This document shows positions 19,472 to 46,994 of a stretch of 64,000 nt of DNA, piece after piece. Where the stretch lies: assembly GCF_019890935.1 (NCBI RefSeq), contig NZ_CP082333.1, positions 1,080,001 to 1,144,000 on the forward strand, written 5' to 3'. The position numbers and the translations under genes were made by a program. The DNA comes from Exiguobacterium acetylicum. GTDB taxonomy: Bacteria > Bacillota > Bacilli > Exiguobacteriales > Exiguobacteriaceae. How positions within the stretch are numbered: position 1 is the stretch's first letter; each line of letters begins with the position of its first letter. The notes under the pieces were generated by a model, which saw only the letters and a list, made by a program, of their open reading frames with translations, was not told the DNA's origin and made no database searches.

Positions 19472-21304
19472 GTGGGAATCATTCGTGAATTATCCGATAG
19501 TTTAGCGAACCGGATCGCGGCGGGAGAAGTCGTCGAACGACCAGCATCGGTCGTCAAGGAACTGGTCGAGAACGCACTTGATGCCGGTGCGACCCAAATC
19601 GATGTCGAACTCGAAGAAGCCGGGATGAAACGGATGACGATCCGCGACAACGGACACGGGTTTTACCCGGATGACGCTGAACTGGCTTTCGTCCGTCACG
19701 CGACGAGTAAGATTAAGGATGAGCATGACTTGTTCCGAATCAAGACACTTGGTTTTCGCGGAGAGGCACTTGCCTCGATCGCGTCCGTCAGTAAAGTGAC
19801 ATTGAAGACGAAACGTGAGGACGCGGAAGGAATTCAAGTGACGCTTGAGTACGGGACGGTCGTTGAACGGACACCAGCAGCAATGAACCGGGGAACGGAA
19901 TTGACGGTCGAGCATCTCTTCTTCAATACACCGGCACGGCTGAAGTATTTGAAGACGACGCATACAGAACTTGCGGCGATCACAGACGTGCTGAACCGAA
20001 TGGCGTTCGCTCATCCAGACGTCAAGCTTCGGGCTACCCATGAAGGGAAGACATTGATCCAGACGAACGGATCAGGAGACGTCCGGCAAGCACTGGCAAG
20101 TGTCTACGGTCATCAAACGATCCAAGGAACGTTGGTCGCCAAGGGCGCGAATGCCGATTATCAATTGACGTGTCATCTCGTCAAACCGGAAGTGACCCGT
20201 GCCTCGAAGAATTACATCACGTTGATTCTCAATGGACGTTCGGTCAAAAACTTCGCTCTGACGCAAGCGGTCTTGAACGGTTACCATACGCTCTTACCGA
20301 TCGGGCGGTATCCGATTGCGGTCATCGAGGTGACGATGGATCCACTCCTGATCGACGTCAACGTCCATCCGGCGAAACGGGAAGTCCGTCTTTCAAAAGA
20401 GATGGAGCTGTGCCAGTTGATCCAGGAGACGATCAAGATGACGCTCAGCCGAGAGACGCTGATTCCGAAAGTGACGCCACCGAAACCAAAAAAAGATCCG
20501 AGTAGCCAGGAAAAACTCGATTTTTCTTATGTCGCTGAACCGGTCGAAGAAACGTCATCGCGAGCGGTCTGGAATTATCCGATTCCGAAAAAGCCGCAAG
20601 AAGACGATCGACCACCTGTCGAGAAATCATTACCTTTTAGCAACGAGGATGATCTATTCGAGCCCATCGAGCCGGTCAAGCAGGAGTTTACTGAACCGAT
20701 TGAGGAACCAGTCGCGCGTCCGCGCTTTCCGCATCTCGACGTCATCGGTCAACTCCATTCGTCTTATATCGTCTGTGCCGGGGAAGACGGGATGTATATG
20801 ATTGATCAACATGCAGCACAGGAACGAATCAAATACGAGACGTATAAGGTCATGTTCGGTCGACCACCGGAACAACGACAGCAATTGCTCTTACCGTATA
20901 CGTTTGAAATCTCGTCGGATGACATGAAACGGATGGAGGAAGTCCTTCCGTTGTTAAAAGACGTCGGTATCGAGTTCGAAGCATTTGGTCCACAAAGCTT
21001 CATCGTCCGAGAAGTTCCGACGTGGTTCCCGTCCCATCGACAGGAAGAGACGATTCAGGAATTACTCGATGAAGCCTTGATGAAGCGAAAAATCGATCTC
21101 GAGACGTATCGGGAAGATGCCGCCATCATGATGGCATGTAAAAAATCCATCAAGGCAAATCATCCGTTGAACGATGAGATGATGCGCCGGTTGATTGACG
21201 ATCTAGCGAAAACGGAAATGCCGTTCACGTGTCCACACGGACGTCCGGTCATCATCGAATGGACGACGTATGAACTTGAGAAGTTATTCAAACGGGTCAT
21301 GTGA
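19472..21304 (+). CDS. mutL: DNA mismatch repair endonuclease MutL
   Basis: The 610-residue MutL has the N-terminal GHKL ATPase motifs VKELVENALDAGAT, IRDNGHGF and TLGFRGEAL, a proline and acidic-rich linker (about 330-420), and a C-terminal endonuclease domain. The nicking motif DQHA-x2-E-x4-E is intact (DQHAAQERIKYE), with ACKKSIKANHPL and CPHGRP, so it should be an active nickase, as usual where MutH is absent. The start is GTG at 19472 after GTGAGGAGAATGCA. A palindromic element follows the stop by 44 bp. Confidence 0.98.
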   Translation: MGIIRELSDSLANRIAAGEVVERPASVVKELVENALDAGATQIDVELEEAGMKRMTIRDNGHGFYPDDAELAFVRHATSKIKDEHDLFRIKTLGFRGEALASIASVSKVTLKTKREDAEGIQVTLEYGTVVERTPAAMNRGTELTVEHLFFNTPARLKYLKTTHTELAAITDVLNRMAFAHPDVKLRATHEGKTLIQTNGSGDVRQALASVYGHQTIQGTLVAKGANADYQLTCHLVKPEVTRASKNYITLILNGRSVKNFALTQAVLNGYHTLLPIGRYPIAVIEVTMDPLLIDVNVHPAKREVRLSKEMELCQLIQETIKMTLSRETLIPKVTPPKPKKDPSSQEKLDFSYVAEPVEETSSRAVWNYPIPKKPQEDDRPPVEKSLPFSNEDDLFEPIEPVKQEFTEPIEEPVARPRFPHLDVIGQLHSSYIVCAGEDGMYMIDQHAAQERIKYETYKVMFGRPPEQRQQLLLPYTFEISSDDMKRMEEVLPLLKDVGIEFEAFGPQSFIVREVPTWFPSHRQEETIQELLDEALMKRKIDLETYREDAAIMMACKKSIKANHPLNDEMMRRLIDDLAKTEMPFTCPHGRPVIIEWTTYELEKLFKRVM

Positions 21305-21348: not shown

Positions 21349-21560
21349 AAAAAGGGAGCTGACTCAAAACTTAAAAGTCAGTTTCTGCAAAGAATGACGT
21401 GTCACACGCAACTCCTACAGGAAAAAGCGCATTTATGCGCTGTCAGAGACAAACAAGACCCGCTTTCCTGCTTGAATGAAGCAGGAAAACTGGCTTGTGT
21501 CTCGCCTGAGGAAAGGGCGTGAACAGACGCGTCATTCTTTTTTGGAGTCAGCCCCTTTTT
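21349..21560 (+). repeat. Palindromic multi-branched repeat, copy 1
   Basis: This 212-bp element is nested inverted repeats. The outer arms are 21349-21369 and 21541-21560 (core GCTGACTC/GAGTCAGC). The second arms are 21389-21402 and 21527-21540 (AAAGAATGACG...). Inside are a hairpin AGCGCA-TTTA-TGCGCT at 21426-21441 and a 10-bp hairpin TTTCCTGCTT/AAGCAGGAAA at 21464-21488, flanked by GAGACAAACAAG and CTTGTGTCTC. The fold is cloverleaf-like. The right end carries T tracts, so it may also terminate mutL transcripts. A second copy lies at 46578-46822. The rest of the gap 21305-21742 holds no gene of size; see the 8-codon candidate in the findings. Confidence 0.85.
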
Positions 21561-38365: not shown

Positions 38366-38600
38366 GAAAGATTAAGCGATGATGAAACCGAAGTAAAGAC
38401 CATTTCCCTGTTTCAGAGAGCACGTGGCGCTGCGAACGTGTACACAGATGGTGTTGAATTACAGTTTCTGAGCTTCTTGCGTAAGCGAGCGGAGCACACC
38501 GTTATCCCAATCATAAGTGACTCAGTCGATGACTGGGTAATCAGGGTGGTACCGCGGCTTTCGTCGCCCCTGTCGAACAATATGTTCGGCAGGGGCTTTT
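38366..38600 (+). promoter_or_regulatory. T-box riboswitch, probably tRNA-Tyr
   Basis: The T-box sequence AGGGTGGTACCGCGG lies at 38543-38557, followed by the terminator stem GCCCCTGTCGAAC/GTTCGGCAGGGGC (38566-38596) and a T run. Stem I is seen as GAAAC/GTTTC and ACCAT/ATGGT helices flanking a specifier loop with AGTA (38392-38395) on one side and GAA (38456-38458) on the other. By the usual GAA-N-codon-A layout the specifier is UAC (38460-38462), a Tyr codon. This fits control of an enzyme that makes tyrosine. The leader fills the 38300-38634 gap. Confidence 0.92.
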
Positions 38601-38634: not shown

Positions 38635-40284
38635 ATGTCTACACCAATCATTCCAAGTCATTTACGTCCACACGTCGCACCACAGCACTACGAAGACTAC
38701 ACACCAACGGATCATGCCGTTTGGAGATACGTCATGCGACTGAATTTAAATACGTTACAAGATACAGCACATCCGGCATACCTCGAAGGGCTTGCTGCAT
38801 CGGGTATCAGCCCGGAACGGATTCCGGACGTGCGTGAGATGACAGCGAACCTAAGCCGTGGAGGCTGGGGAACAGTCGCTGTTGATGGTCTCATTCCTGG
38901 CGTCGCCTTCTTCGATTTCCAAGGGCACGGTCTCTTGCCGATCGCGACTGACATCCGGAAGGTCGATAACATTCTTTACACACCAGCGCCAGATATCTTG
39001 CATGAAGCAGCGGGGCACGCGCCAATCTTGATGAATCCGGTCTACGCGGAATTCGTTCGACGCTTCGGTGAGATCGGGGCACATGCCTTTAACCATAAAG
39101 CCGAGCATGATGTATTCAAGGCACTAAAGAAATTGACGATCGTCAAAGAGAGCCCGTTCTCGACGCCAGCCGACATCGAGCAAGCTGAAGTTGAACTCGC
39201 GGAGACACGGACACACGTCAAAGGGATTTCGGAAGCGAACGAAATCTCACGTCTGTTCTGGTGGACGGTTGAATTCGGTCTGATTGGTGATATCGACAAC
39301 CCACAAATCTACGGGGCAGGTCTTCTATCATCCGTCGGTGAAAGTCGCCACTGTTTGACGGACGCGGTCGTTAAACATCCATTCTCACTCGAGAAGGCAC
39401 TTGCGACGAAACATGACGTGACGAGCATGCAAAAAGAACTCTTCGTTTGTGAATCGTTCGAACAGCTCCGCGATGCTCTCGAAGAATTCGCACAGTCGAT
39501 GTCGTACATCCGCGGTGGTATCCACGGTCTGACGAAAGCGGTCGAATCAGGTAACCTATCGACGCTCGTTTTCGACAGTGGTCTCTCGCTCGTCGGTGTT
39601 CCTGAAACGCAAGAGATTCACGATTCGCTGCATCTCGTCAAACTAACAGGTCCAACAGCGCTTGCTGCGAACGGTGAAGTGTTGACAGGTCAAGGACTGG
39701 CAGATCATCCAGAAGGCTTTACACTCCTTCACGGTAAGGAATTGAACGAAGTATTGATGCAAGTCAAAGTCGGTGAACGTCTCGACTGGGCGGAAGGAAA
39801 TGTTCACGTCACAGGGGAGATCACAGCGATTCAAAACGTCAATGGAAACCGGGCACTCGTCGTCTTAGAAGCAGCGACGCTTGCAAACGACGGGAAAACG
39901 ATGACGATGGAGCGGATGGAATTGATCGTCGGTGACATCACGTCAGCATTCCCGGGAACGGAAGTTGAAGCACTGAAGCCGATTCCGGAAACGGTCGAGT
40001 TCGAACGAATCGAACGTCCGTTGACAGCGGCTGATCCGATCTTCGAAGTCGTCCGCGAGATTCGTGAAGGACGTGCCGGTCGGGAACGGTTACCGCAACT
40101 GATCGACCAGACACTCGTCCAGTTACCGGACGCTTGGTTACTCCGTCTTGAATTACTCGAGTTAGCGGATGAAGTCGATCAACCACGTCTGATTGCAGAT
40201 CTCGAGCGCTTAAAAGCGACGTCTGAGCAGCGAAATGAATTGATCACGCGTGGGATGGCCTTACTCGACGTCGTTCATCAATGA
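38635..40284 (+). CDS. phhA: Phenylalanine 4-monooxygenase (long form)
   Basis: This non-heme iron, pterin-dependent enzyme hydroxylates phenylalanine to tyrosine. The 549-residue protein has an N-terminal hydroxylase domain (about 1-270) with the iron ligands in LHEAAGHAPILMNP and FWWTVEFGLIG with YGAGLLSSVGE. The C-terminal half (about 280-549) is an extra region found in the long Bacillus-type enzymes, of unclear role. The ATG follows AAGGGGGAACTCAT, just after the T-box terminator, so expression should rise when tRNA-Tyr is uncharged. No PhhB dehydratase is adjacent. Confidence 0.93.
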   Translation: MSTPIIPSHLRPHVAPQHYEDYTPTDHAVWRYVMRLNLNTLQDTAHPAYLEGLAASGISPERIPDVREMTANLSRGGWGTVAVDGLIPGVAFFDFQGHGLLPIATDIRKVDNILYTPAPDILHEAAGHAPILMNPVYAEFVRRFGEIGAHAFNHKAEHDVFKALKKLTIVKESPFSTPADIEQAEVELAETRTHVKGISEANEISRLFWWTVEFGLIGDIDNPQIYGAGLLSSVGESRHCLTDAVVKHPFSLEKALATKHDVTSMQKELFVCESFEQLRDALEEFAQSMSYIRGGIHGLTKAVESGNLSTLVFDSGLSLVGVPETQEIHDSLHLVKLTGPTALAANGEVLTGQGLADHPEGFTLLHGKELNEVLMQVKVGERLDWAEGNVHVTGEITAIQNVNGNRALVVLEAATLANDGKTMTMERMELIVGDITSAFPGTEVEALKPIPETVEFERIERPLTAADPIFEVVREIREGRAGRERLPQLIDQTLVQLPDAWLLRLELLELADEVDQPRLIADLERLKATSEQRNELITRGMALLDVVHQ

Positions 40285-45274: not shown

Positions 45275-45353
45275 AGTTAAATTTTATTGAACTTTAGTGT
45301 AGAATAAAGGAGTGGAAGAAAAATGTAAAGATAAAGTTCAATATAATTTAACT
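45275..45353. promoter_or_regulatory. Long inverted-repeat operator pair
   Basis: Arm 45275-45296 and arm 45332-45353 are 22-bp inverted repeats with one mismatch, 35 bp apart. Each arm is itself a partial palindrome (AAAGTT...AACTTT ends around an AT-rich centre). They flank both divergent starts and are strong candidate binding sites for the XRE regulator. Confidence 0.7.
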
Positions 45354-45377
45354 TTTATGATAAAAGGAGTGACCAGT

Positions 45378-46568
45378 GTGCTAGGGGAACGTATCAAACA
45401 GATCCGAAAACAGAAAAAAATGACGCAAACGGATGTTGCGACCGGTATCATCACGAAGTCGATGCTCAGTATGGTCGAGAACGGGAAAGCGACACCGTCA
45501 GTGCCCGCACTACAGGCGATTGCTAGGCGATTACAGGTGACAGTCGAAGAATTAATGCTCGATCCGCGGGATGTTCAGATGCGGGAACTCATCGAAACAA
45601 TCCGTTCACGGCGTACCCCATATTTTTCAGACGAAAAAATTCAGGAACTTCTAGAACCTTACTTGGTTCCGGAAACGACTTCCTATTGGCAGGGGCAGGT
45701 CTACCATAAATACGGCGATGCCCTCCGAGCGTCTAACCCGGAGCTTGGTTTGATTTATTACGAGAAAGCAGAGCGAATTTTTCAACAGCTCGGTCGCCAA
45801 GATGAGCAGTTGCTCGTTCAGATCTCGACAGTCTATTTTTTGTTCAATCTTAAACGGACGAAGGAAGCGTACGAGCTGATCGAAGCAATGGATGTACCAC
45901 GTGAGATTCCACTTGCGCCAAAAACCTATTTAAATTTCCAAATCTTGCGTGCACTTCGAGCAAGTTTGTTCGATGATCACTATACAGAAGCAATCGCCTT
46001 ATTGCGTGAAGGAGTTCAGTATATGCGGGAGCAAGATGTCTATTATCATGTCATTTCGTTTCAACGTTTCCTCGGATTGTTTTTATATCTAGAAGGGGAA
46101 ATCGAACAATCACGGCAAGAGTTTGATCGATTGGAGCAGTTTTTTGCATTTAGTGAAACGACTGCCGTCGGACGAATCGAAGTCGATTTGACGAAAGGAC
46201 TCATCGCGATTTTTGAAAACGATACGGACGGCATGCAGATGGCATGGGAAAAACTCGTCACTGTGGCGATCGACGACGCGAAACATTACATCGGACAACT
46301 CGAAGTCCACCTCCTTGTGAACGGCATCGAATTACCGAATCAGACGCTTCAGCAGAGCGTCGATAAGATATGGGAGATGCAAGATGCGTGGCTTGCCGCG
46401 AGTGGATTTGACCAAGCGATGATGTTACAGACGCTCGTACTAGCGATGCAACGAGGGATTGGTCAGGAACGGCTGGAGGATGTCATTCGATTGAAGGATG
46501 ATCTTCAAAGCGAACGCCTCAAAGGCGATCTTGAGCGAGAGATACAAGCATTGGTTAAGGTTCAATGA
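45378..46568 (+). CDS. XRE-family regulator with TPR domain
   Basis: The 396-residue protein has an N-terminal helix-turn-helix (about 1-60: RIKQIRKQKKMTQTDVATGI, SMLSMVENGKATPSVPAL) and a long all-helical region with TPR-like units (about 80-390), as in the RNPP/Rgg-like regulators PlcR and NprR. Those bind short signalling peptides, but no peptide gene was recognised nearby. GTG 45378 follows AAAAGGAGTGACCAGT; earlier in-frame codons cross the operator. A palindromic repeat begins 9 bp after the stop. Confidence 0.87.
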   Translation: MLGERIKQIRKQKKMTQTDVATGIITKSMLSMVENGKATPSVPALQAIARRLQVTVEELMLDPRDVQMRELIETIRSRRTPYFSDEKIQELLEPYLVPETTSYWQGQVYHKYGDALRASNPELGLIYYEKAERIFQQLGRQDEQLLVQISTVYFLFNLKRTKEAYELIEAMDVPREIPLAPKTYLNFQILRALRASLFDDHYTEAIALLREGVQYMREQDVYYHVISFQRFLGLFLYLEGEIEQSRQEFDRLEQFFAFSETTAVGRIEVDLTKGLIAIFENDTDGMQMAWEKLVTVAIDDAKHYIGQLEVHLLVNGIELPNQTLQQSVDKIWEMQDAWLAASGFDQAMMLQTLVLAMQRGIGQERLEDVIRLKDDLQSERLKGDLEREIQALVKVQ

Positions 46569-46577
46569 CAAAAAAAC

Positions 46578-46822
46578 GAGGCTGACTCAAAAGTCAGTCT
46601 CTACAAAGATAAGGGGAACAGATCATCAATCCGTCCCCCTTACCTCGTAATAAAAAGAATGACGCGTCACACGCTACTCCTACAGGAAAAACGCATTTAT
46701 GCGTTGTCAGAGACGAACAAGACCCGCTTTCCTGCTTCATCAATAAAGCAGGAAAACTGGCTTGTGTCTCGCCTGAGGAAAGGGCGTGAAAAGACGCGTC
46801 ATTCTTTTTTTGAGTCAGCCCT
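46578..46822 (+). repeat. Palindromic multi-branched repeat, copy 2
   Basis: The same element as at 21349-21560, in the same orientation, 245 bp long. Outer arms GAGGCTGACTCAAAA and TTTTGAGTCAGCCCT close it. Copy 2 has an extra segment of about 45 bp (about 46609-46653) that forms its own hairpin. The inner hairpin is AACGCA-TTTA-TGCGTT where copy 1 has AGCGCA-TTTA-TGCGCT, a compensated pair change. The 10-bp central stem is unchanged while its loop differs. The right end overlaps the 3' end of a small minus-strand gene. Confidence 0.85.
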
Positions 46823-46994
46823 GTTCGTGTGAGGATGTCGTTCTTCTGAAAATCAATAAGACGCATGCAAGGATGGAAACGATCAAGTGACCGATATAGA
46901 CGTCTCCCGTCTGGATATAATGCAAGAGCATCGAGCCACCAAAAATCAATAAGGCAAGAAAGAGTAAACGGACATACAGTGTTTTATAAGACAT
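46815..46994 (-). CDS. Small two-helix membrane protein
   Basis: A 59-codon frame starting MSYKTLYVRLLFLALLIFGG has two hydrophobic helices (about 8-24 and 32-49) and a basic RR after the second. The ATG follows GGAAAGGATGTGTCTGC, a normal ribosome site. The last codons and stop lie in the outer arm of repeat copy 2. I do not recognise the family. The good ribosome site and clean membrane pattern support it; its size makes it easy to miss. Confidence 0.6.
   Translation of the reverse strand: MSYKTLYVRLLFLALLIFGGSMLLHYIQTGDVYIGHLIVSILACVLLIFRRTTSSHEQG

Follow-up and report, generated by a model that had tools for sequence, protein, structure and literature searches.

The window, that is, the whole stretch of 64,000 nucleotides of Exiguobacterium acetylicum DNA that was analyzed, contains two related elements, both in plus orientation and each located behind a plus-strand gene, as a preliminary description made from the sequence alone had stated: copy 1 follows mutL (19472-21304) and copy 2 follows the gene of an HTH protein (45312-46568). 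Taking their terminal repeats as limits, copy 1 extends from 21354 to 21555 and copy 2 from 46578 to 46821, all their features being given here on the plus strand; the A-runs and T-runs beyond these repeats may originate from the target. In copy 1, the left terminal repeat GGGAGCTGACTC (21354-21365) is preceded by an A-run, and the right one, GAGTCAGCCCC (21545-21555, one mismatch relative to the 12-letter end), is followed by TTTTT. The corresponding repeats of copy 2 are GAGGCTGACTC (46578-46588) and GAGTCAGCCC (46812-46821). Copy 2 sits between convergent reading frames, and a minus-strand ORF of 59 aa (46815-46994) ends at 46815, its stop codon being supplied by the right terminal repeat of the element.

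Parts and Folds of the Two Copies

Both elements consist of a shell, bounded by the terminal inverted repeats, and of a branched core, which comprises P1, P2a, the P2 hairpin, P3, and P4 in copy 1 (21405-21521) and occupies 46670-46788 in copy 2. Folding adds to copy 1 an extension of P1, whose 5' arm (21390-21403) pairs with a 3' arm (21526-21539) that is followed by a T-run and overlapped by a terminator-like match (21516-21533, plus strand), and to copy 2 a second shell hairpin (46608-46646) not present in copy 1. The central 10-bp stem P4 (21464-21488 in the fold of copy 1) is identical in both copies (TTTCCTGCTT/AAGCAGGAAA) and closes loops of 5 and 8 nt, exactly as first described. The P2 hairpin, which fold and alignment place at 21426-21441 in copy 1 (AGCGCA-TTTA-TGCGCT), has arms AACGCA/TGCGTT in copy 2, a difference initially taken for a G-C to A-T swap that keeps pairing. 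Pairing is kept, but the swap is not what the alignment shows: one G was deleted and a C changed to T, so that pairing was preserved through an indel plus a substitution.

The claim of a structured fold was borne out when folding was compared with shuffles (z of -9.1 for copy 1 and -11.2 for copy 2, none of 200 shuffles equaling either). A search of the whole window with Rfam 15 at the gathering threshold returned a single match, a T-box elsewhere, and none at either element, while a loose-threshold scan of copy 1 gave two matches, both at chance level. The T-box leader (RF00230, 123 bits) lies at 38370-38574 (plus strand), upstream of an ORF at 38635.

BLAST searches that used copy 1 as the query, together with a covariance model, R1, built from 29 of 64 same-genus cores (117 positions, 41 pairs), located copies on contig C1. 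R1 yielded 45 full matches in the 3.39 Mb genome (at least 34.6 bits, one strand), the two in the window scoring 140.4 bits (copy 1) and 123.5 bits (copy 2), so that the suspected dispersed family, with copies well beyond the window, does exist. Duplicates were removed before counting, namely L039, which is the L010 copy, L057, which is L056, and one identical row of the core set. The shell is whole or partial in 34 of the 45 copies, the core standing alone in 11. The remaining 29 R1 rows are antisense or low-scoring matches overlapping known copies, or a remnant at C1:1004009. At least two further members, absent from the R1 list, were detected with R2, a model built outside the genus and presented below; they lie at C1:2522947 and at L036:2249-2340 (73.4 bits). 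Across genomes, R1 found copies in each of the 19 genomes searched within the genus, this one included, in 7 of 19 sister-genus genomes and in two genomes outside the family, that is, in 28 of 151 overall with 24 candidates scored per genome. By position, the copy 1 site is also occupied in six relatives (G001, G002, G004, G005, G016, and G018).

Some copies show additional arrangements. The core at L036:2249-2340 and another at L056:1702-1794, both of Bacillales type with R2 (73 and 78 bits, respectively), face in the opposite direction beside other copies, a terminator-like hairpin lying between the two at L036. A third subfamily, antisense and core-like (TTCCTAGGGAAAAACAAGC...), adjoins the core in the composite copies L010, L014, L025, L027, L030, and L033, as well as upstream of L006, and L010 also holds a terminator segment resembling the hairpin that G015 and G012 have at the copy 1 site. 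L324, in G015, is a shell copy lacking the core, which looks to have been deleted across the palindrome at the P1 stem (AATGACGCGTCATTC).

In a MAFFT alignment of the 29 cores, 96.8% of the pair cells are paired, so stems are kept far more often than broken, and 16 of the 41 pairs changed on both sides. Shuffles of these cores never reached any of five measures (0/500), and slid partners were only 30-55% paired. The preliminary description had suggested selection on a folded structure, which these values uphold. Sequence identity, counted in 25 of the 34 shell copies (one over-long row added gap columns only), amounts to 0.96-0.99 in the core blocks versus 0.90-0.94 in shell or P1-extension parts. 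Both the sequence and the fold of the core look maintained by selection.

Element-Free Sites and the Shell

The shell has the inverted ends GRGGCTGACTC...GAGTCAGCCYC. Among 35 exact occurrences of GCTGACTCAAAA in the genome, 33 are element ends. Of the two that belong to no known copy, one (L106) is in what looks like coding sequence and the other (L105) in a lone hairpin, GGAGCTGACTCAAAAGTCAACTCC, which resembles the left end of the shell and has no core by R2. The empty sites that the preliminary description had proposed to look for in relatives were found for 27 of the 34 shell copies, the others being copies not queried (L006, L014, L027, L030, and L033) or without a usable element-free allele (L007 and L029). 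In 25 of these 27 sites, a terminator-like hairpin occupies the place of the element. At the copy 2 site, a hairpin, mostly CAGGCATGA...TCATGCCTG, is present in all eight relatives examined. At the copy 1 site, the element is absent from G015 and G012, where another hairpin is found; because the latter resembles a segment inside composite copies, the ancestral state of copy 1 is ambiguous. L001 and L022 are ambiguous for replacement, the element-free hairpin of L022 looking like joined element ends.

The junctions were compared with windows drawn at random from the same loci. Stems of at least 9 bp, one mismatch being allowed, were found at the junction in 83 of 87 element-free alleles from 26 sites (85 alleles plus two of L010, L025 being the 27th site and outside this count), versus 78 of 435 random windows. 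The junction table excludes occupied, inverted, IS-bearing, or unresolved alleles (L270, L271, L274, L286-L289, L291, L313, L318, L320, L324, L326, L327, L329, L342, L343, L352, L354, L358, and L362-L366). The four alleles failing the 9-bp test are three of L009 and that of L023, in which the hairpin is interrupted. At L009 and L025, the exceptions to replacement, the element is inserted next to a kept terminator, an arrangement expected if the element simply inserted near terminators and the redundant old hairpin was lost later. We regard this scenario as quite improbable, since no remnant of the upper hairpin was seen at 25 of the 27 sites and both breakpoints are located within the hairpin or close to it.

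Depending on the site, the tip of the hairpin or the whole of it is lost, and both lower stem halves are retained at several sites. For instance, the stem base AAAAATGAC/GTCATTTT persists on both sides of the element at L020, which together with L015 and L024 provides the clear cases of kept stem halves that are not A/T. The stem halves kept on the two sides correlate (rho 0.64, p = 4e-4, 26 sites), an apparent symmetry that is inflated because element and target have similar A-runs and T-runs. At L008, the entire 37-nt hairpin is gone, along with the A-run and T-run of the target, and the copy itself has neither run. No target duplication was noticed at the junctions read, where shared A/T-runs blur the edges. 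In other genomes, the element is inverted at the same site at L002, L008, L031, and L032, and the core-only sites L037, L038, and L097 are inverted in G001. Replacement in place, edges that are often common, and insertion in either orientation are also compatible with gene conversion or template switching between terminators sharing A-run/GC/GC/T-run edges, by which the element would spread without a transposase. Such a process appears improbable, given that both runs of the target were lost at L008 and that an autonomous IS1182-family IS enters the same sites.

This IS was detected in the relative G016 at L008, L019, and L029, three sites holding the element in the present genome; it was sought only at sites already known to carry the element. 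It is 1.83 kb long, has the ends AAGAGGCTGGGACATAACT, and encodes a 527-aa transposase, which belongs to the IS1182 family in the copy tested (L418; NF033551, 413 bits, E-value 1.8e-123), the other two being 100% and 98% identical. At L008 in G016, the IS likewise replaces the tip of the hairpin, the stem base being kept. When anchored at the tip, the element end and the end of the G016 IS have 11 of 15 letters alike (p = 1.2e-4), a similarity that varies with the end variant chosen (10 of 15 for the GGGG end form). Among five records of plasmid relatives, similar outer ends are seen in four, from Mesobacillus, Cytobacillus, and Kurthia, two of them being the same Kurthia IS, and the Terribacillus record has none. 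We found no IS with exactly GGCTGACTCAAAA ends. The part of the element's own genome that was searched, 408 distinct kb out of 3.39 Mb, contained no IS1182 transposase. BLAST searches of plasmids and phages with copy 1 gave no match, and in 17 viral contigs containing GGCTGACTCAAAAGTC there was neither a partner end within 3.5 kb nor a related transposase.

Other enzymes were considered. A route through a reverse transcriptase (group II intron or retron) was rejected, as the genome has no PF00078 match at an E-value of 0.001. The copies are intergenic, hairpin-rich, and dispersed, with opposite-facing neighbors at L036 and L056, features which recall REP/RAYT-like systems, where a Y1 tyrosine transposase acting on single-stranded hairpins moves palindromic copies. 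We nevertheless hold this to be very improbable: the only PF01797 match of the genome is a tnpA that forms an IS605-type pair with tnpB, and an IS1182 model better fits hairpin replacement. This pair, the only one in the genome, lies at L104, 1.8 kb from copy L029, a nearness that looks accidental.

With respect to their neighbors, as judged from the orientation of the longest ORFs alone, 23 of the 34 shell copies are flanked by convergent genes, 11 by tandem genes, and none by divergent genes. The outer arms often rebuild an A-run, stem, and T-run in both directions, and simple scans gave four and six terminator-like matches around the two window copies, versus 0.3 and 0.5, respectively, in shuffles. 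The element would be expected to terminate transcription. The initial view that it is not just a terminator holds only in part: the element occupies, in 25 of 27 sites, the place of terminator-like hairpins, which its outer arms often resemble in having an A-run, stem, and T-run.

Because the published IS1272, a member of the IS1182 family, transposes by replacing stem-loops, we read the shell as an IS1182-type MITE. Altogether, the elements are likely to be non-autonomous MITEs, in which an IS1182-type shell surrounds a conserved folded core, and to have spread by replacing terminator-like hairpins; the preliminary description noted neither a mobile shell nor that target hairpins are replaced. 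As proposed for IS1272, an IS1182-family transposase would recognize its target as a hairpin, either as a cruciform or as a single strand, the element would be joined at the target hairpin, and the hairpin would be lost. The copies in this genome would be mobilized in trans. Once inserted, the element, often with its own A-run, stem, and T-run, may assume the role of terminator for the genes on either side, most of them convergent, and this would explain why the insertions are tolerated.

The Core Family across Bacillales

The preliminary description had mentioned, as an unverified link, CTCCTGCGGGAAAAGC-like dispersed repeats of Bacillaceae. The link was recovered in both directions: R1, built within the genus, matches these repeats (best E-value 3.4e-8), and R2, built outside it, matches both copies of the window (27.7 bits and E-value 1.3e-5 for copy 1, 31.9 bits and E-value 8e-7 for copy 2) and no third place at E-values up to 1. 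A scan of genome contigs with the repeat core CGACTCCTGCGGGANNAGC gave at least 118 stretches; among the 80 listed, nearly all are Bacillales by title and four (L131, L145, L160, and L173) are plainly unrelated. R1 produced 55 matches at E-values up to 1 in the 80 listed loci, the best again at 3.4e-8, a count partly biased because the loci were picked by the 5' core pattern. One of them, L136, on a contig labeled Arthrobacter, holds a typical Bacillales repeat (R1 18.8 bits), the result of either contamination or transfer.

R2 derives from 33 aligned sequences, none of them from the genus, and is not fully independent of R1, because the initial detection of all 33 relied on R1 or on the core pattern. 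In this alignment, RNAalifold recovered P1 and P2a unaided and missed P3; the named P1, P2a, and P3 pairs are kept in 92.6% of cells, with 62 double-change cells. Shuffles of the 33 sequences never reached the observed values on four of five measures (0/500) and did so in 252 of 500 cases on the fifth. With R2, ten candidates scored per genome, and strict filters, the core family was found in 121 of 398 genomes, representing 35 of the 145 genera of the class, and the core also occurs without the shell. In a Kurthia plasmid, a Bacillales core copy (L442:287-384, minus strand; R2 33.9 bits, E-value 5.8e-8) lies between the end and the transposase of an IS1182-family IS. The Bacillales repeat, with the core GACTCCTGCGGGA...GAGACCC...GGCTC...CCGCGGAAAGCG, resembles the element in its core blocks and in the P1, P2a, and P3 pairs, whereas the P2 hairpin is absent from the 33 aligned sequences and many repeats have other outer ends (GTTGATT...AATCAAC). 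The reciprocal model matches and the covarying P1, P2a, and P3 place the core of the element in the Bacillales repeat family. This repeat may be the Bhal-1 repeat described in PMC2267715. We found no description of it in the literature covered, which left out most subscription journals, and Rfam 15 at the curated threshold gave no match to the core family in five loci.

We propose that the core is distinct from the shell that transports it and represents an older structured element of Bacillales. Its presence in 35 genera, its greater constancy compared with the shell, and the covariation of its stems also raise the question of whether the element acts primarily as a functional regulatory RNA or as a processed terminator, its dispersal being a by-product of selection at gene ends. 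We consider this unlikely, as 27 of the 34 shell sites are element-free in at least one relative, gene context having been compared by orientation alone. Returning to a core carried by a mobile shell, a bolder version, which we consider less probable than not, is that the core represents a new class of Bacillales structured replicator or RNA, with a branched fold, the nearly fixed letters GACUCCU, AGACCC, and GGAAAG, and many copies in 35 of 145 sampled genera. It would be read by a dedicated protein and, in this genus, would hitch-hike in an IS1182-type shell swapped for terminators, rewiring the 3' ends of dozens of operons.

Comparison with Known Systems

The EFAR repeats of enterococci (De Gregorio et al. 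2009) reportedly have empty sites consisting of unrelated stem-loops that are mostly deleted, part of the stems being kept at the ends. By this description, they would resemble the present element in the replaced hairpin and in the stem parts at the element ends. IS1272, of the IS1182 family, is reported to replace stem-loops, which are deleted, and to make no target duplication (PMC5678879). IS1272 and TnSha1 use hairpin targets that include terminators, with several insertions in both orientations at one terminator (PMC4923244), and these targets share no sequence (PMC5678879, PMC4923244). On that basis, hairpin replacement at the element sites looks the same, and the IS of G016 belongs to the IS1182 family; in contrast with IS1272 and TnSha1, the element has no transposase gene, measures about 200-245 bp, contains a structured core, and is present in dozens of copies. 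The bcr1 repeat, for which a tie to a TTTAT motif and a restriction to the Bacillus cereus group are reported (PMC6542083), is also a dispersed repeat in a Bacillus relative and is set beside the element by description only.

In the reading we favor, a short non-coding element would be moved by hairpin-replacing transposition to the ends of dozens of genes in a single genus. Element-free alleles are available for 27 sites, and in a relative three sites of the element hold a member of the candidate transposase family. A covarying and highly conserved core connects the copies with a repeat widespread in Bacillales, which would be either a highly successful parasite or a functional RNA not described so far. 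The mode of spread proposed here, stem-loop replacement as in IS1182/IS1272, is already known; the MITE and the core family are new variants.
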